A program made the position numbers and the translations under genes. Shown in pieces: positions 2,379-15,541 of a stretch of 64,000 bases of DNA. Within the stretch, counting starts at the first letter, position 1. Every line of letters begins with the position of its first letter. Source of the DNA: Roseateles sp. Its GTDB lineage: Bacteria > Pseudomonadota > Gammaproteobacteria > Burkholderiales > Burkholderiaceae_C. Under the pieces are notes generated by a model. That model saw only the letters and a list, made by a program, of their open reading frames with translations, was not told the DNA's origin and searched no databases. Where the stretch lies: positions 1 to 64,000 of the forward strand of contig JACDQM010000105.1 of assembly GCA_015657635.1 (NCBI GenBank), in the 5' to 3' direction.

Positions 2379-4106
2379 ATGCCTCTGCCCAAGCCCCCGA
2401 CCAAGCGCGCCAGCCGCCTAGACGCTACTGCCTTTGCCGAAACGCTGGCGGTCAGCAAAGCCCCGACACCACGGCCAGCGGCCACCCCCTCTGCGGCGCC
2501 TGTTGCCGCCGCCCCGACCAAGGCAAGCAAGACAGGACGCCGCCGCGCCGACGCGCAGCCCGCGCTCGATGCCACAGCCAGCGCACCGGTGCAGCAGACG
2601 CCCGCCACATCATTTGCCCATCCGCCCGCCATCGCTGCCGCCGCAGCGCCGGCTATCGTCAGGCCCAAGGCCAATGGCGCCAAGAGCAGCAAGCCGAAGA
2701 GCCTGGAGGCGCCCAAGCTGTTCGTGCTCGATACCAATGTGCTGATGCACGACCCGATGTGCCTGTTCCGTTTCGAGGAACACGACATCTACCTGCCCAT
2801 GATCACGCTCGAAGAGCTGGACGGGCACAAGAAGGGCATGTCGGAAGTGGCGCGCAATGTGCGCCAGGTCAGCCGCGAACTTGATGCGCTGGCGGCCAGC
2901 CTGCAAAGCAGCACGCTCGAAGAGATGGCCAAGGGCCTGCCCTTGGCGCACACCGGCCACCGCGAGGCCGGTGGCAAGCTGTTCTTCCAGACCCAGCTGC
3001 TCGATACCCCCCTGCCCGCCGGCCTGCCGCAAGGCAAGGCGGACAACCAGATCCTGGGTGTGGTGCAGGCGCTGAAGAACCTGCAGCCCAGCCGCGAGGT
3101 GGTGTTGGTGTCCAAGGACATCAATATGCGCATCAAGGCCCGCGCGCTGGGTCTGGCGGCTGAGGACTACCGCAACGACAAGACGCTGGAAGACAGCGAT
3201 CTGCTCTACACCGGCGTGCAGGCCCTGCCAGCGGACTTCTGGGAGCGCCATGGCAAGACCATGGAGAGCTGGCAGCAAGGCGGCCTGACCTACTACCGCA
3301 TCAGCGGCCCGCTGGTGCCCTCGCTGCTGGTCAACGAATTCGTCTACCTTGAAGCCCCCGGCGCGGCGCCGCTCTATGCCAAGGTCACCGAGATCACCGG
3401 CAAGAGCGCGGTGCTGCGCACCTTGAAGGACTTCGGCCACCAGAAGAACTCCGTCTGGGGCGTCACGGCGCGCAACCGCGAGCAGAACTTCGCGCTCAAC
3501 CTGCTGACCGACCCGGATTGCGACTTCATCACGCTGACCGGCACTGCCGGCACCGGCAAGACGCTGATGACGCTGGCTGCCGGCCTGCAGCAGGTGCTGG
3601 ACGAGCGCCGCTACAGCGAGATCATCGTCACCCGCGTGACCGTGCCGGTGGGCGAGGACATCGGTTTCCTGCCCGGCACCGAGGAAGAGAAGATGGGGCC
3701 CTGGATGGGCGCGCTGGACGACAACCTGGAAGTGCTGGCGCGAGGCGACGGCAGCGCCGGCGAATGGGGCCGCGCCGCGACCAACGATCTGGTGCGTAGC
3801 AAGATCAAGATCAAGAGCCTGAACTTCATGCGCGGGCGCACCTTCCTGAACAAGTACGTCATCATTGACGAGGCGCAGAACCTGACGCCCAAGCAGATGA
3901 AGACCCTGATCACGCGTGCCGGCCCGGGCACCAAGATCGTCTGCTTGGGCAATCTGGCGCAGATCGACACGCCCTACCTGACCGAAGGCTCCTCGGGCCT
4001 GACCTATGCGGTGGACCGTTTCAAGGGCTGGGCCCACAGCGGCCATGTGACCCTGGCACGCGGCGAGCGCTCGCGCCTGGCGGACTTCGCTTCCGAAGTG
4101 CTGTGA
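2379..4106 (+). CDS. PIN-PhoH family ATPase (PhoH2/YlaK-like)
   Basis: A 575-residue fusion of a PIN nuclease domain and a PhoH P-loop ATPase. PhoH2 proteins of this architecture are RNA helicase/RNases in mycobacteria. Residues 1-110 are rich in Ala, Pro and Lys and look disordered. The PIN domain opens with LDTNVLMHD (first acidic residue Asp118) and continues with ITLEELDG. Walker A is GTAGTGKT at 388-395, and Walker B is IIDEAQN with Asp497-Glu498. The frame is open from about 2307 because of a TTG, but that start lies in the terminator hairpin; the ATG at 2379 is preferred although its ribosome site is weak. It stands alone between terminators, upstream of a HAD gene. Confidence 0.85.
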   Translation: MPLPKPPTKRASRLDATAFAETLAVSKAPTPRPAATPSAAPVAAAPTKASKTGRRRADAQPALDATASAPVQQTPATSFAHPPAIAAAAAPAIVRPKANGAKSSKPKSLEAPKLFVLDTNVLMHDPMCLFRFEEHDIYLPMITLEELDGHKKGMSEVARNVRQVSRELDALAASLQSSTLEEMAKGLPLAHTGHREAGGKLFFQTQLLDTPLPAGLPQGKADNQILGVVQALKNLQPSREVVLVSKDINMRIKARALGLAAEDYRNDKTLEDSDLLYTGVQALPADFWERHGKTMESWQQGGLTYYRISGPLVPSLLVNEFVYLEAPGAAPLYAKVTEITGKSAVLRTLKDFGHQKNSVWGVTARNREQNFALNLLTDPDCDFITLTGTAGTGKTLMTLAAGLQQVLDERRYSEIIVTRVTVPVGEDIGFLPGTEEEKMGPWMGALDDNLEVLARGDGSAGEWGRAATNDLVRSKIKIKSLNFMRGRTFLNKYVIIDEAQNLTPKQMKTLITRAGPGTKIVCLGNLAQIDTPYLTEGSSGLTYAVDRFKGWAHSGHVTLARGERSRLADFASEVL

Positions 4107-5025: not shown

Positions 5026-6521
5026 TCAGTCGGGCGCGCTGGTGTCGCGCGCATCCGGACTGCCTTCGTGTCCGCGCAACTGGTAGAAGATAAAGGCCGC
5101 CAGCGCGGCCATCGCACCGACCGAGCCGAAGGTGGCATGGAAAGCCGGCAGCAGTGCGCTACCCAGACCCTGATGCACCTGCGCCAGCCCGGCGCCGTCT
5201 GAATAGAGCAGCAGGAAGGCACTGGACGTCGCCACGCCCAGGCTCATCGAGAGCTGCATCACGACCGCCAGCAGGCTGTTGCCGCTGCTCGCGGTGGCAG
5301 CATCCAGATCGCCCAGCGTCAGTGTGTTCATCGCGGTGAACTGCAGGCTGTTGATCATGCCGAACAGCGCCAGGTGCAGGGCCAGCCACAGATGCGTGGT
5401 CTGCCGGTCGATCAGCGCGAAGCTGGCGATCATCAGGCCCAGCAGCAGCGTGTTGACCACCAGCACGCGGCGATAGCCGCGCGCCGGATCAGCCGGATGG
5501 CCAGCGTCTTGCTCAGCATGGCGCCCAGCACGGTAGGCACCATCGAAAGGCCAGCCACGCTGGGGCTGTAGCCCAGGCCCAGCTGCAGAAACATCGGCAT
5601 CAGAAAAGGCGTGGCGCCGCTGCCCAGGCGCGCAAACACATTGCCGATCAGGCCGATGCGGTACGTCGGGATCGCGAACAGCTCGCGGCTGAACAGCGGC
5701 CGCTCGGCGCGTGCCGCATGCAGCCAGTAGGCCATCACGCAGGCCAGCCCGGCCACCAGCATCACCACGCAGACAGCCGGACTGAGCATCGCTTCGCCGA
5801 AGCCCTGCAAGGCCATCGACAGCAGCACCAGGCCGAGGCTGAACAAGGCAAAGCCGCCCCAATCGAAAGGCGCCGGTGCGTCGCTGCGCAGCTGCGGCAT
5901 ATAGCGCAGCGCCACCAGTACGCCCAGCACACCCACCGGCAGATTGATCAGGAAGATCCACTGCCAGCTGGCGTACTGCACCAGCAGCCCGCCCAGGGCC
6001 GGCCCGATCAGCGGGCCCAGCAGACCGGGCAGCGCAATGAAGGTCATCACCGGCAGGAACTCGTCCTTTGGAAACACCCGCAGGACCGCCAGCCGGCCGA
6101 CCGGCGTCAGCAAGGCGCCCCCTATGCCCTGCAGCACCCGTGCGGCCACCAGCACCTTCAGCGACGGCGACAGCGCGCAGGCCAGCGAACCCAGCGTGAA
6201 CAGAACGATGGCCCAGACGAAAAGTCGGCGCGTGCCGAAGCGGTCAGCCAGCCAGCCGGAGGCCGGAATCAGCAGCGCCACGGTCAGCAGATAGGCCACC
6301 ACCGCCGACTGCATACGCAGCGGGTTCTCGCCCATGTCGGCCGCCATGCCAGGCAGCGCCGTGTTCAGGATGGTGGTGTCCAACGTCTGCATGAAGAAGG
6401 CCAGCGCCACCACCCAGGGCAGGACGCGGCGCGTTGCCGCATCGACGGGCACACGCTCGAGCGCCAACGCCTCCTCCTGCGAGCTCGCTGGCAGCTTCTC
6501 GGACGACTTCTCGGGCAGCAT
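5026..6521 (-). pseudogene. DHA2-family MFS drug efflux transporter, frameshifted
   Basis: An MdtD/EmrB-like 14-helix proton-drug antiporter of the inner membrane, about 498 residues when repaired. The first frame (6521 to about 5480) contains the MFS loop GWLADRFGTRR and the TM5 signature GPALGGLL. It then shifts into nonsense at ..AIRLIRR. The second frame resumes with GYRRVLVVNTLLLG and runs to the stop at 5026. One base is missing in the GCGCG run around 5477-5486. Both halves are fully conserved in style, so sequencing error is as likely as true inactivation. The ATG at 6521 is preferred because the upstream extension overlaps the terminator of the preceding gene. Confidence 0.8.
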
Positions 6522-10672: not shown

Positions 10673-11003
10673 GTCTGACACCTCTGTACCGGCTGTGACG
10701 CCAATAATTATTGATGATGAATTAACTCAAGCTGTATTTCATGCGGCGGGGCTGACGATAGCCTGACCTCGCTGCGCCCGGCATGGCGCTTCCCGGCGCC
10801 CGTTACCGATGCTTGCGCCAGAACAAGCACCTGAACAGAGGGTTGACCTGCAGGCTGTGGTCCAATCCGGGTATTCCCCTGGAGACGCCTGCGCTCGACG
10901 CCCGGGCTTTCCCTCGACCCCTGCGACCTTGCTTGACACTCACGCCAGCCCCCATAGACACTCGCCGGCCATGTCCGCCGCCGGCCCCAAGCTCCCAGCC
11001 CCG
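10673..11003. promoter_or_regulatory. Divergent control region between prpE and the NlpC/P60 gene
   Basis: These 331 bases hold no credible gene. On the prpE side there is an AT-rich segment (10706-10740) with TTGAGT on the minus strand at 10725-10730. On the other side TTGACA at 10933-10938 is followed after 16 bases by TAGACA (10955-10960). A transcript from there would start near 10967, which favours ATG 11004 over ATG 10971 for the downstream gene. Confidence 0.4.
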
Positions 11004-11660
11004 ATGACCGTCCAGCACACGCTGCGGGTCGGACTGTTGGTGCTCGGCTTGAGTCTGGCTGGTGCGGCAGCCTTGGCCGCGCCGGGTGACCACTCGGCCC
11101 CGGCGCCGCAAGGCGCTGCCAGCGCGCCGGCAGCGGGTGGCGCCGATGCGGTCAGCAAGTTTTTGCGAGAACGCGGGCTGTGGTCGCCGGGCAGTGCCCC
11201 GGGCGAGGTGGCCAACCAGGATCTGCTGAACCAGGTCCGCGACCGCGCCTCGGAAATGGTGCTGTCCGCGATGAACTTCCTGGGCGTGCCCTACCGGCGC
11301 GGGGGCAGCTCGGTGGAAACCGGCTTCGATTGCAGCGGCTTCACTCGCCACATCTTCGAAATGAGCCTGGGCCTGGTGCTGCCGCGCCGCGCCGACGAGC
11401 AGGCCAAGCTGTCCAGTCTGGTGACCATCAAGCGAGAAGAGCTCAAGCCGGGCGACCTGGTGTTCTTCAACACCATGCGCCGGACCTTCTCGCATGTGGG
11501 CATCTATGTCGGCGAGGGCAAGTTCATCCACGCGCCGCGCAGTGGCGCCAAGGTGCGCGTGGAGGATATGCGCGAGGCCTACTGGGCCAAGCGCTACACC
11601 GGCGCGCGCCGAGCCGAGCTGCCTGGCGGCGGCGACAGCCCGGTGACGATCACGCAGTAG
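11004..11660 (+). CDS. NlpC/P60 (C40) cell-wall hydrolase
   Basis: A 218-residue exported cysteine peptidase expected to cut peptide cross-bridges of peptidoglycan. It begins with a signal peptide (TLRVGLLVLGLSLAGAA, Ala-rich cleavage region), then a linker rich in Ala, Pro and Gly. The C40 catalytic residues are visible: Cys in FDCSGF, His in SHVGIY and a third polar His in FIHAPRSG. Starts at 10971 or 10809 are open but lengthen the n-region without a ribosome site. Its stop overlaps the end of the convergent PEP-CTERM gene by 11 bases. Confidence 0.82.
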   Translation: MTVQHTLRVGLLVLGLSLAGAAALAAPGDHSAPAPQGAASAPAAGGADAVSKFLRERGLWSPGSAPGEVANQDLLNQVRDRASEMVLSAMNFLGVPYRRGGSSVETGFDCSGFTRHIFEMSLGLVLPRRADEQAKLSSLVTIKREELKPGDLVFFNTMRRTFSHVGIYVGEGKFIHAPRSGAKVRVEDMREAYWAKRYTGARRAELPGGGDSPVTITQ

Positions 11661-12603
11661 CCGACACCTGAGGGCGGAGGCCACGCCGTGTCCGCAGCCA
11701 GCCCATCAGTCCCAGACCGGCGAGCAGCAGGCTGGTCGTGGCCGGCTCCGACACCTGACTGGAGGGCTCGAGCGCAAAGTCGAAGCCACTGGAGCCGGTG
11801 GTGTTCAGACCCTGGACCGAAGGCGTCAGATTGAAGTGAGCCGAGTTGTAGAAGTCCGACTCGACCCAGCGCCCAGTCGTGGCGTAGGCGCTCACCGAGG
11901 CGCCCACCTCCAGCGTGGCGCCGATGGAGATCTCGCGCCCGACCTGCGTGTTCAGCGTGATGCTGTAGAGCCCCGGATCGTCCTGATCGGCATACCAGCG
12001 ATTCCAGACTTCCTCGCGCGTCGTCAGGTCGGTCAGCCGCACCCAGGCTTGGCCATAGCCGCTGAGGTAGCCGCCGATCTCGAAGTCCGGCTGGCTCAGC
12101 GTGCCGTCGATGCGCATCGTCACCGTATAGCTGACCGGCGTGCCGACGGCAAGTCCGGCGCCCGATACCGAGAGGGTGTCATAGAAGCCCGCACCCACCG
12201 TCGCATTGCTGTAGCCGTTCAGTACCGTGCGCCCGCCCAAGCAGCAGTAGGGATAACTGGCGCTGGCGTAGGCCTTGAGCATGCCCATCCGGCCCATGAA
12301 ACGTGCGCTGGCGCTGCCGCCACCGGCGTGCGCCTCATCGTCCAGGCGCTGCAGGCTGCGGGCCTGAGGCTGGTTCAGGTAGTCCAGCCGCATCGTGTGG
12401 TCGTCAACGGTGCCGGGCAGCGGGTAGAAGCTGGTGGCATTGACCAGGGTGTTGGCGTAGAGCTGGTACACCCCAGCCTGGGCCGGCAAGGCCAGATGGA
12501 CCAGGCCGAAAGCCAAGGCCAAACCAGGCACAAAGCCATTCTTGCGAGTCGAGACAGGCCGCACCCAAGCCTGCGGCGGGCACGATTGAAGCAGATCAGA
12601 CAT
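11650..12603 (-). CDS. PEP-CTERM sorting-domain protein
   Basis: A 317-residue exported protein of unknown function. It has an N-terminal signal region (GLALAFGLVHLALPAQA) and ends with the exosortase signal SEPATTSLLLAGLGLMGWL followed by RTRR. PEP-CTERM proteins are processed by exosortase and go to the envelope or extracellular matrix; no exosortase gene is in this window. The middle is a beta-rich domain with no motif I recognise and a Cys-Cys pair (YPYCCLGG). The ATG at 12603 has GGGGAG five bases upstream. A two-block motif shared with the kinase gene lies at 12664-12698, about 60 bases before the start, suggesting joint control with the sigma-factor/kinase pair. Confidence 0.85.
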   Translation of the reverse strand: MSDLLQSCPPQAWVRPVSTRKNGFVPGLALAFGLVHLALPAQAGVYQLYANTLVNATSFYPLPGTVDDHTMRLDYLNQPQARSLQRLDDEAHAGGGSASARFMGRMGMLKAYASASYPYCCLGGRTVLNGYSNATVGAGFYDTLSVSGAGLAVGTPVSYTVTMRIDGTLSQPDFEIGGYLSGYGQAWVRLTDLTTREEVWNRWYADQDDPGLYSITLNTQVGREISIGATLEVGASVSAYATTGRWVESDFYNSAHFNLTPSVQGLNTTGSSGFDFALEPSSQVSEPATTSLLLAGLGLMGWLRTRRGLRPQVSATA

Positions 12604-12663: not shown

Positions 12664-12698
12664 CGCAGACATACGCAAAGCCGCGGCCGATCCGGCCA
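12664..12698 (-). promoter_or_regulatory. Two-block motif, copy A (candidate ECF promoter of the PEP-CTERM gene)
   Basis: Given on the plus strand, CGCAGACATACGC and GCCGATCCGGCCA are separated by nine bases. The same two 13-base blocks with the same spacing occur at 14914-14948. Read on the minus strand, the order is TGGCCGGATCGGC, nine bases, GCGTATGTCTGCG, which has the shape of a -35/-10 pair. It stands 60 bases before the PEP-CTERM start codon. Confidence 0.6.
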
Positions 12699-12727
12699 GC
12701 AGCCTTGCCGGCGCCGGGCAGGGCCGC

Positions 12728-14911
12728 TCAGCGACGGGCGCGGCTGCAGGCCGTCAGCGCGGCCTCGTATGTGGCACGACCCTGGCCCGGCTCGGGCGCC
12801 GGCAGGCTCTGCAGCAAGGCGCTGGCGCGCGTGCGCGCTGCCGGCTCACTGCACCAGGCACCGACCAGCGCGTGCAACTCGCGCAGCGGCTGGCGTGCCA
12901 GAACAGCCTGCGGCCCGAGGCTGGCCTGAAGGCGCTGCCAAGCCTGTTCGGCCGCGTCCAGCGAATCGGCCGCCGCGCCGCGTTCTTGCTGCACGGCGGC
13001 GAGCTGCAGCAGCAGACGCACATGGTCCAGCGCGATATAGGGCTCGCTGTGCAGCAGCAAACCTTGCGCCTGCTGAAGCAGTGGCAAGGCCGCCTCGAAC
13101 TCTCCCGCGTGGCGCTGAAGCGCTGCCAGCCCCATCAGTGCGCTGACATGGCCGCTGTCCTGCGGCGCATCGCGTTGGTAGAGCTCGCGCGCCCGCTCAA
13201 GGGCCTGCTGGCGCTGCGCTGACGCAGCGCCGGCAGCGCTCCGCCAGTCAGCCGTGGCCAGCCACCACTCGGCGCGCAGCAGTCCGCGATGCGGCAGACG
13301 GGTGTCCAGCGTCTGCAACAGCACCTGGGCCTCTGCCTGCTTGCCCAGCGCCAACGTCGGCCAGACCAGGGACATGCCCACGCCAGGGCAGCGCTCGGCA
13401 CCCAAGCTGCTCGCCAGGCAGGCTTGCCAGCGCCGCAGCGTCAGCGCCCGACTGCGCTCGGCTTCGCCGAGATAGTCGTAGATCGTGGCCGTCAGGTGCA
13501 GCAGCGCATCAGCTGCCTCGGGGTCACTGGGCAGTTGCTGCTCGATCCGGTCCAGGCGCTGGCGCAGCAGCGCGCGCATCGCGGCAGCCGGCTGCGCGGC
13601 ATCGGCTTTGCGCGGGTCCAGGGTGCGGAACAGATCCAGCAACTCCTGGCTGGCCGCTTGCGCGCGCAGTGCCTGCTGCTGCGCCTGGCGGGCCTGCCAC
13701 AGCGCCAGCGCCAGGCCCAAGAGCAAGGCGAGCAGCACCGCGCCCGCCGCCAAAGCCGGGCCACGACGCTGGCGCCACCAGCAATGCAGACGGTAGCGCC
13801 AGCTGTCGGGGTGCGCCTGCACCGGTCGGCCGTCCAGCCAGCGGTGCAGATCGGCCGCAAAGGCCTCGACGCTGGCGTAGCGCGCCGCCGGGTCCGCCGC
13901 CCGAGCTTTCAGCACGATGGCATCGAGTTCGCCGCGCAGCGCGGCCGCGGCCGCGGCCGGCGCTGCTTCGCTGGGCGGCTGGGGGTGCAGCGCCTGCAAC
14001 TCGCGCACCATGGCCTCGCGCGTCTCGGCACGCAGCTGGTAGGGCCGCTGGCCGCTCATTAGCTCGTGCAGCACCAGACCCAGCGCGTAGACATCCACCG
14101 CCACCGTCAACGCCTGGCCGGCCAACTGCTCGGGCGCAGCGCAGGCGGGCGTGAGCGCGCCGGCCTGGCTGACGGGCAGCGCGTCGCCCTCGCCGGCCTG
14201 CGGCGCCAGCAGGCGGGCGATGCCGAAGTCCAGCAGCTTCACATGGCCCTCGCGGCTGACGCACAGATTGGCCGGCTTGATGTCGCCATGCACCACCAGG
14301 CGCGCATGCGCGAAGCGCACGGCCTCCAACACCTGCAGGAAAAGGATCAGGCGCGCGCGCAAGGGCAGCGTCTGCGCATGCGCCAGCAGCGGCAGGCCAT
14401 CGACACGCTCCATCGCCAGATAAGGTTGGCCGCCCTCGGCCAGGCCGGCGTCGTACAGGCGGGCGATGCCAGGGTGCTCCAGCGCCGCCAGCAGATCGCG
14501 CTCATGCTCGAAATGCCGGCTCCGCAGCTCGCGGCCCTCAGGCAGGTGGCGCGGCAGCTTCAAAGCCACCACGCGCCGCACGCCGCTGAGCTGTTCGGCC
14601 TCCCAGACGCTGGCCATGCCGCCCTCGCCCAGTGGACGCAGCAATCGGTAGGGGCCGACGCACTGCCCCGCCGTCAGTGCCACCACCTGTCCCAGCAGTG
14701 CTTGGCTCATCAGCGAAATCGGCGACTCCGGCAACTGCGCTCGGCCCTGATGCGCCTGCAGCAGCCGCTGCAAGTGTGCGGCCAGCTCAGCATCGCGCTC
14801 GCGCAGGGCAGCCAGGCGCTGCGGCCAGGTCTCGGGCACCCATGTCATGGCCTCGTCGAAGGCAGCGGACAGCGCAGGCCACAGGGCAGCAGGGATGGCG
14901 GTCCGGCTCAT
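12728..14911 (-). CDS. Membrane-anchored Hanks-type serine/threonine protein kinase with TPR-like sensor region
   Basis: A 727-residue protein kinase. An N-terminal helical segment (1-80) precedes the kinase domain: glycine loop GEGGMASV 95-102, ATP lysine Lys118, catalytic loop HGDIKPANL (Asp210, Asn215) and DFG 228-230. His-Gly-Asp replaces the usual His-Arg-Asp, so it is a non-RD kinase. One transmembrane helix lies near 385-407. The remaining 320 residues are helical and alanine-rich, resembling tetratricopeptide repeats, and would lie in the periplasm. It follows the sigma-factor gene by 45 bases. Copy B of the two-block motif ends right before the ATG, so a transcript from it would be nearly leaderless. 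Confidence 0.86.
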   Translation of the reverse strand: MSRTAIPAALWPALSAAFDEAMTWVPETWPQRLAALRERDAELAAHLQRLLQAHQGRAQLPESPISLMSQALLGQVVALTAGQCVGPYRLLRPLGEGGMASVWEAEQLSGVRRVVALKLPRHLPEGRELRSRHFEHERDLLAALEHPGIARLYDAGLAEGGQPYLAMERVDGLPLLAHAQTLPLRARLILFLQVLEAVRFAHARLVVHGDIKPANLCVSREGHVKLLDFGIARLLAPQAGEGDALPVSQAGALTPACAAPEQLAGQALTVAVDVYALGLVLHELMSGQRPYQLRAETREAMVRELQALHPQPPSEAAPAAAAAALRGELDAIVLKARAADPAARYASVEAFAADLHRWLDGRPVQAHPDSWRYRLHCWWRQRRGPALAAGAVLLALLLGLALALWQARQAQQQALRAQAASQELLDLFRTLDPRKADAAQPAAAMRALLRQRLDRIEQQLPSDPEAADALLHLTATIYDYLGEAERSRALTLRRWQACLASSLGAERCPGVGMSLVWPTLALGKQAEAQVLLQTLDTRLPHRGLLRAEWWLATADWRSAAGAASAQRQQALERARELYQRDAPQDSGHVSALMGLAALQRHAGEFEAALPLLQQAQGLLLHSEPYIALDHVRLLLQLAAVQQERGAAADSLDAAEQAWQRLQASLGPQAVLARQPLRELHALVGAWCSEPAARTRASALLQSLPAPEPGQGRATYEAALTACSRARR

Positions 14912-14913
14912 AT

Positions 14914-14948
14914 CGCAGACATACGCGAATGCTGTGCCGATCCGGCCA
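14914..14948 (-). promoter_or_regulatory. Two-block motif, copy B (candidate ECF promoter of the kinase gene)
   Basis: The 13-base blocks CGCAGACATACGC and GCCGATCCGGCCA (plus strand) are identical to copy A, with the same nine-base gap but different gap bases (GAATGCTGT against AAAGCCGCG). It lies between the sigma-factor stop and the kinase ATG. If it is a promoter, the start of transcription would fall within a few bases of the kinase ATG. Confidence 0.6.
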
Positions 14949-14956
14949 TGCGGGCC

Positions 14957-15541
14957 TCAAGCCAGCTGATCCAGCAGGAAGGCTCGCGCCTTGGCCCATT
15001 GCCGGCGCAAGGTCCTCTCACTCAGGCCCAGGGCCTGGGCCGCCTCGGGCTCGGTATAGCCGCCATAGAAGCGCAACTCCACCAGCTCGGCCAGCGCCGG
15101 GTCCAGCGACTCCAACGCGCGCAAGGCCTCGTCCAGCTCGCTGAGCTGCTGCAGCGGCGCACTGTCGGGCAGCAAACCCAGCGAGGCGGTGTCCCAGGTC
15201 TGGCGCTGCCAGTCACCGCCGCGCCGCTGCGCCTGCGCGCTGCGCACGAAGTCCACCACGATGTGGCGCATGATCTTGGAGGCCAGGCTGAAGAAGTGCT
15301 TGCGCCCCTGCAGCGGAGGCGCCGCGGCGGCCGTGATGAAGCGCAGGAAACACTCGTGCACCAGGGCTTCGGTATCGAGCAGCGTGGGCGGCGCCGGCCC
15401 GCGCAGGCGCGCGCTGGCAATGCGCAGCAGCTCAGGGTAGAGGCGGCGGAACACACGCTCCGCGGCCGCGGCATCACCGGCCCGGGCCTGCTCCAGCCAG
15501 AGAGTCACATCCGCTTGCGGCGACTGCGCGTGCTCGTCCAT
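14957..15541 (-). CDS. ECF-type RNA polymerase sigma factor
   Basis: A 194-residue sigma-70 relative with regions 2 and 4 only. Region 2 covers about 28-105 (LYPELLRIASARLRG, EALVHECFLRF, HIVVDFVRS). Region 4 covers about 135-190 (LAELVELRFYGGYTEPEAA, helix-turn-helix LGLSERTLRRQW). This style matches the family of ECF-like sigma factors encoded beside serine/threonine kinases. No anti-sigma factor is next to it; the kinase downstream may be its controller. The ATG at 15541 follows an inverted-repeat region. The open frame extends far upstream to 16045 only because of GC-rich sequence. Confidence 0.85.
   Translation of the reverse strand: MDEHAQSPQADVTLWLEQARAGDAAAAERVFRRLYPELLRIASARLRGPAPPTLLDTEALVHECFLRFITAAAAPPLQGRKHFFSLASKIMRHIVVDFVRSAQAQRRGGDWQRQTWDTASLGLLPDSAPLQQLSELDEALRALESLDPALAELVELRFYGGYTEPEAAQALGLSERTLRRQWAKARAFLLDQLA

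Follow-up and report, generated by a model that had tools for sequence, protein, structure and literature searches.

The 64,000-nucleotide window analysed here, from a Roseateles sp. assembly (GCA_015657635.1, contig JACDQM010000105.1), carries on its minus strand, in the order of transcription, a gene for an ECF43-like sigma factor, a 35-bp repeat, a gene for a Hanks-type Ser/Thr kinase, a second copy of the repeat and a gene for a PEP-CTERM surface protein (Table 1). The sigma stop codon (14957) and the kinase ATG (14911) are 45 nt apart; the kinase-side copy lies in this gap and stops 2 nt short of the ATG. The other copy lies between the kinase stop codon (12728) and the PEP-CTERM ATG (12603). 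A plus-strand NlpC/P60 peptidase gene (10809–11660) converges on the PEP-CTERM gene, and their 3′ ends overlap by 11 nt.

Table 1. Coordinates of the sigma factor locus and its putative promoters in the window
Feature	Coordinates	Strand	Details
ECF43-like sigma gene	14957..15541	-	194 aa; PF07638 E 9.6e-49, TIGR02999 E 8.3e-47
Putative kinase-gene promoter	14914..14948	-	-35 TGGCCGG 14948-14942, 16-nt spacer, -10 CGTATGT 14925-14919
Hanks-type Ser/Thr kinase gene	12728..14911	-	727 aa; PF00069 E 9.4e-33
Putative PEP-CTERM-gene promoter	12664..12698	-	-35 TGGCCGG 12698-12692, 16-nt spacer, -10 CGTATGT 12675-12669
PEP-CTERM surface protein gene	11650..12603	-	317 aa; PF07589 E 5.3e-6

The two repeats

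Read along transcription, each repeat is TGGCCGGATCGGC-N9-GCGTATGTCTGCG. The first-pass annotation had described two blocks that recur exactly, with the same 9-base gap and differing gap bases, each time upstream of a minus-strand gene, and both copies agree with this in sequence and position. Its block positions are correct; on the minus strand, which is the functional one, the right-hand block is the −35 side (TGGCCGGATCGGC) and the left-hand block the −10 side (GCGTATGTCTGCG). The 13-mer blocks are exact repeats but are longer than the core kept in evolution, TGKCCGGWT ... TTGCGTAYGTC. On this strand both copies have the form TGGCCGG-N16-CGTATGTC, the geometry of an ECF promoter; the 7-base −35 element, the 16-base spacer and CGTA at −10 fit such a promoter.

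At up to 3 mismatches the window holds these two copies and no others, and 100 dinucleotide shuffles held none. The genome-wide search for the blocks that had been proposed with the first annotation covered 4,603,275 bases in 191 contigs (93.84% complete) and returned, again at up to 3 mismatches, just the same two sites in the one locus; a backwards control pattern returned none. Exact matches to CCGG-N16-CGTAYGT are confined to these two sites per genome, in the window's own genome and in a congener.

Conservation of the motif

The closest genome (G001, same genus) encodes a sigma factor 96–97% identical to that of the window and keeps both sites, with 3 mismatches before the kinase gene and 1 before the PEP-CTERM gene. 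The motif had also been proposed as something to look for beside the same sigma/kinase pair in relatives, and its core was found there, next to sigma orthologs of 49–63% identity: between the sigma and kinase genes in L034, L119, L121, L123 and L133, after the kinase gene in L119 and L120, and upstream of the sigma gene in L122. In loci with an exact core where the sigma and kinase genes are divergent (L128, L181 and L186), the core follows the kinase strand.

The surroundings of related sigma genes (66 loci, 749,079 bases) contain 21 matches to TGNCCGS-N16-CGTAYGT, or 18 when the 3 loci chosen through the pattern itself are excluded. Gaps of 8–15 and 17–24 bases gave no matches in these loci, and a gap of 25 gave one. 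For gap 16, 30 sequence simulations with a third-order Markov model yielded a mean of 0.2 matches and a maximum of 2. Conservation extends beyond the search pattern: among the 21 matches, position 7 is A or T in 20, position 8 is T in 19, position 21 is T in 17, and CGTAYGT is followed by C in 14. The exact core was absent from all 11 class-level sigma loci from outside the order, searched with flanks of ~1.5 kb. It requires 9 changes on a 69-row sigma tree, in a clustered pattern, and is therefore a trait that comes and goes, not one that marks a single clade.

A search of 399 family genomes for TGNCCGGW-N15-CGTAYGT gave 21 matches in 18 genomes, and 14 of these matches lie within ~3.5 kb of a related sigma gene. 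Such sigma genes have at least 233 matches in 94 of the 399 genomes, with no more than 8 candidates scored per genome, and their neighbourhoods make up an estimated 0.1% or so of the DNA searched, so the chance expectation there is far below one match. The other 7 matches had no sigma or kinase match in the surrounding 7–13 kb. A longer pattern, with 1 mismatch allowed, was searched for in 399 genomes from the order. It was found in the window's own genome (2 sites) and in 7 others with one site each; none of these 7 belongs to the 21 genomes that have a sigma match, and we take their sites as chance matches. Backwards control patterns are not fair in composition for CGTAYGT, being commoner than the pattern itself (at 2 mismatches, 22 control against 10 pattern matches in G000 and 24 against 11 in G001). 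The argument is carried by the spacing controls.

A matrix built from 19 exact sites gave 51 scores of at least 12 in 37 of the 66 loci, including the 21 exact sites, and none in 1.5 Mb of simulated sequence. The broader form of the motif is TGTCSGGWTT-N10-TTSCGTW, with variants such as TGTCGGG...CGTTTTA. An iterated matrix reached this score 96 times in 732,079 bases, 15 times in 1.5 Mb of simulated sequence and 8 times in 113,293 other real bases; it was fitted on its own data, and the real-DNA control includes 7 stretches fetched for a pattern match, so we rely on a test with unseen loci. For this test, 39 further loci were picked by sigma similarity alone, and the two halves of the matrix were scored at 17 offsets. 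At thresholds of 14, 16, 18 and 20, the native offset gave 33, 25, 23 and 14 matches, the 16 other offsets gave 1–6, 0–3, 0–3 and 0–2 each, and a reversed control gave 1, 0, 0 and 0. A full-matrix site scoring at least 18 occurs in 24 of the 39 loci and in none of the other 15. The looser matrix passed this test. Dyad enumeration upstream of kinase genes without an exact core was uninformative, with start points falling in coding sequence and a reversed control that gave a similar picture, and was replaced by the matrix scan.

Sigma factor and its clade

The sigma factor scores 166.2 bits against PF07638 (cut-off 21.1) and 159.4 bits against TIGR02999 (cut-off 126.15), models that we take to stand for the ECF43 group. 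A Hanks-type kinase gene adjoins it, with its ATG 45 nt after the sigma stop codon; co-occurrence with such a gene has been called a hallmark of ECF43 (PMC13147305). The phospho-acceptor threonine in region 2.2, found in 88% of ECF43 members and so typical but not universal (PMC13147305), is replaced: region 2.2 reads DTEA-LVHE, and residue alignment places Glu at the phospho-threonine position. The name ECF43-like reflects these family models and carries no claim of group membership. In EcfP (STTA) and EcfK (QATE), the phosphorylated threonine is reported as the third of four residues before LV-HE (PMC8999054, PMC13147305), the register of these residues to LVHE being our own alignment.

At the switch residue, the 69 sigma rows divide into 52 with T, 5 with E, 5 with Q, 3 with S, 2 with G and one each with N and P. 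The corresponding counts for 107 matches without the congener are T 87, Q 6, E 4, S 3, G 2, N 1 and P 1, with 3 unread. The window's sigma factor falls in a clade of nine (bootstrap 100, SH-aLRT 98; 97 in a quick tree) together with G001, L034, L119, L120, L121, L122, L124 and L129. Five members have Glu at the switch position and four have Gln, so threonine is absent from all nine, and the clade holds every Glu and four of the five Gln in the 69 rows. The 11 rows beside the clade in the quick tree all have Thr. Glu requires 2 changes on the sigma tree, and a single origin is therefore not claimed.

PEP-CTERM protein and kinase

PF07589 matches the PEP-CTERM protein with 26.7 bits in the window and 23.7 bits in the congener (cut-off 20.7). 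The protein has an N-terminal hydrophobic stretch and a C-terminal sorting motif (SEPATTSLLLAGLGLMGWLRTRR) whose first Pro is replaced, giving SEP in the window and AEP in the congener. Exosortase is present in the same genome, with 2 matches over the PF09721 cut-off. Within the clade, a PEP-CTERM gene follows the kinase gene at the window, G001, L034, L119, L120, L121, L124 and L129, and L122 is the only one of the nine loci without it there. Outside the clade, a PEP-CTERM gene lies within 2.6 kb in 8 of 91 loci (L282 being doubtful) and in none of 75 others, and 8 loci end too early. The window and G001 were counted by Pfam; the regular-expression count gives a false match in the C-terminus of the window's kinase and misses SEP. 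Two successive PEP-CTERM genes are present in L034, L120 and L121. In L034 (9364–10104) and L120 (5036–5734), the first protein of the pair scores above the cut-off of PF21114, a discoidin-like domain that may serve in adhesion. The predicted structure of the window's PEP-CTERM protein is mostly beta (mean pLDDT 66.8), and comparison with the PDB gave best listed TM-scores of 0.33 or lower; we make no claim of a lectin-like or sugar-binding function.

PEP-CTERM-side sites with an exact core are found in the window, G001, L119 and L120. Weaker sites with the same 16-base gap occur in L124 (18.7) and L129 (20.9), from which the exact core is absent altogether. The score of 10.5 in L034 is within the simulated background (top 11.3), so this site counts by place only, and the site in L121 has a poor −35 side.

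The kinase has a kinase domain at residues 88–307, one hydrophobic helix at ~385–405, judged by inspection to be a membrane helix, and a C-terminal region beyond it. Alignment shows that K118, D210, N215 and D228 are kept, and that HRD is replaced by HGD from residue 208. Of 105 kinase matches, all but four (the window, L034, L207 and L258) have HRD, which leaves 101 with the motif. The congener's kinase, outside this set, also has HGD. The window and congener kinases are ~165–260 aa shorter than nine aligned relatives (~890–990 aa, versus 727 aa in the window), with the difference in the C-terminal region. Both traits coincide a second time in L207 and L258, outside the clade, which have an HGD kinase and, behind a matrix site, a PEP-CTERM gene.

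Promoter model and alternatives

Very probably, the two repeats serve the adjacent ECF43-like sigma factor as promoters and drive the kinase and PEP-CTERM genes. The ECF-type promoter shape, first recognized in the first-pass annotation, is well supported by the fixed 16-nt spacing, the orientation, the conservation and the tie to the sigma family. That annotation had also named the neighbouring sigma factor as the reader, and comparison favours it as the likely one, given the recurrence of the core beside its relatives. A site lies before the kinase gene in five of the nine clade members (the window, G001, L034, L119 and L121). Its absence from the other four (L120, L122, L124 and L129) makes the promoter reading slightly less secure.

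In all five clade members with a kinase-side site, the kinase start codon begins 12–14 nt downstream of the C of CGTAYGT; in L034 it is taken as GTG, and an in-frame ATG inside the site is also present. A transcript started from such a site would have no room for a ribosome-binding site, so the kinase message is probably leaderless or nearly so, with a predicted start at ~14913–14911. The PEP-CTERM ATG is preceded by GGGGAG, and the predicted leader is ~60 nt. RNA polymerase with the ECF43-like sigma factor would then produce one transcript that starts practically at the kinase start codon and a second that starts ~60 nt before the PEP-CTERM gene. By this route the sigma factor would amplify its own kinase partner, a positive feedback, and supply a surface protein sorted by the exosortase pathway. 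Sigma factor, kinase and surface protein would form a small single locus. The small regulon envisaged in the first-pass annotation is well supported by comparison at about two genes in one locus, the exact core being present at only two sites in the genome.

Other readings of the repeats were rejected on conservation, spacing, strand and association with sigma genes. Two-block motifs with fixed spacing can be operators, and GGCCGATCCGGCC in the window is a near-palindrome; a site for a separate transcription factor, with no sigma promoter, is nevertheless unlikely, as neither block repeats the other, relatives do not keep the palindrome, the sites track transcription in position and strand, and they are associated with sigma genes. 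An RNA or translation element, whether a hairpin in the leader or an element at the start codon, is less likely still, and so is a terminator behind each gene. The copies do sit after a stop codon and before a start codon, and the block in the window allows a short hairpin to be drawn, but the start codon lies anywhere from 3 to more than 100 nt beyond the end of the 33-base site, the spacer is constant in length although its bases, like those of the hairpin, vary, and no T run follows in the window. Two near-identical 35-bp copies in one locus could in principle reflect a recent duplication or a functionless chance repeat. We consider this extremely improbable: the spacer bases differ, the congener keeps both copies, and the core is kept beside sigma factors of 49–63% identity.

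The role of the kinase is the least certain step of the promoter model, since the phospho-threonine position of region 2.2 is Glu here. Replacement of an anti-sigma factor by a kinase, as put forward in the first-pass annotation, is established for the ECF43 pairs EcfP/PknT and EcfK/PknS (PMC13147305, PMC8999054); for the present locus, the Glu and the lost HRD arginine weaken it. In EcfK, T51E is reported to be constitutively active, whereas T51A retains function and residue T106 of the linker is important (PMC13147305). From these observations, region 2.2 in the window's lineage probably has its switch in the "charged" state. The linker between sigma regions 2 and 4 still has threonines (QTWDT), and the kinase either acts on these or has another role, between which the sequence cannot decide. 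By analogy with EcfK, the Glu most likely raises basal activity, and the kinase would act, if at all, via the QTWDT linker, as with T106.

The same promoters could instead work with the standard ECF43 phospho-switch, in which the kinase phosphorylates the sigma factor and enables binding of core polymerase, as a positive regulator like PknT and PknS, and the Glu only tunes the response. This account disputes the doubt about the kinase and leaves the promoter reading as it is. The gene pairing and kinase type are those of ECF43, the catalytic Lys, Asp and Asn and the DFG motif are kept, a threonine one residue earlier (DTEA) and the linker threonine are retained, and the behaviour of EcfK T51A and T106 is in line with it. 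Against it, the switch threonine is absent from all nine clade members and kept in 52 of the 69 sigma rows, and the HRD arginine is lost in the window, the congener and L034. We regard the standard switch as a real contender, if not quite the probable one; the Glu and the HGD kinase speak against it, and the usual phospho-switch may be altered here. More tentatively, and on balance doubtfully, the clade could be a branch with a fixed switch, in which Glu or Gln (Glu in the window's lineage) stands in for phospho-threonine and keeps the sigma factor permanently charged. The kinase, transcribed from that sigma factor's promoter as a near-leaderless message and altered in its catalytic loop, would then have turned from a switch into an output or a brake of the PEP-CTERM surface-protein circuit.

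Relation to known systems

Autoregulated ECF promoters of the Bacillus subtilis SigW type have a −35 TGAAAC, a 16-nt spacer and a −10 CGTA, and are under anti-sigma control. The 16-nt spacer and CGTA are shared with the sites described here, whereas the −35 element is TGGCCGG here. The pairing of sigma factor and kinase and activation by phosphorylation are already known. Kinase-switched sigma factors are little explored, and reviews name just a handful of worked-out systems (PMC8999054, PMC8103513).

EcfP/PknT of Vibrio parahaemolyticus (ECF43) likewise combines an ECF sigma factor with a Hanks kinase and no anti-sigma factor; the second threonine of STTA is phosphorylated, whereas the window's sigma factor has DTEA with Glu, and the output is polymyxin resistance rather than a PEP-CTERM protein (PMC8999054). 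In EcfK/PknS of Xanthomonas citri (ECF43), the sigma gene also lies beside the kinase gene, and the transmembrane kinase also has a segment N-terminal to its kinase domain and an outside C-terminal region (PMC13147305). EcfK has QATE with T51 where the window's sigma factor has DTEA, and its output is a type VI secretion system (PMC13147305). Its T51E mimic corresponds to the natural Glu found here. The window's clade is in this respect a natural experiment, in which the evolved Glu matches the laboratory change that renders EcfK constitutively active. A PEP-CTERM gene of Aquincola tertiaricarbonis is also under an alternative sigma factor, there RpoN (sigma-54) and not an ECF factor (PMC9850573).

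No ECF43 promoter consensus was found in a literature search that included parts of PMC13147305 and PMC8999054, the group's classification literature lying outside its coverage. The consensus TGTCSGGWTT-N10-TTSCGTW and its variants, for many such sigma factors of the order, would allow target genes to be listed from sequence. The locus also ties surface proteins of the PEP-CTERM type to signalling by a kinase and sigma factor, a connection not found in the portions of the literature searched.

Other sites of the matrix

Automatic placement of 99 matrix sites put 20 before the kinase gene, 18 after it and 61 in the category "other"; inspection suggests that several of the last group go with a gene divergent from the sigma gene. 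At L218, in the window's own genome (contig C5), a sigma gene paralogous to the window's, from the same family, is accompanied by a site at ~3518–3550 (TGTCGGG...CGTTTTA) before a GGDEF-domain gene, and GGDEF genes also lie behind such sites in L203 and L250. Short proteins of 77–105 aa with one hydrophobic stretch are encoded behind sites outside the clade in L182 (7197–7514), L186 (~5800–6030) and L134 (~5790–6030), and may represent a common small target.
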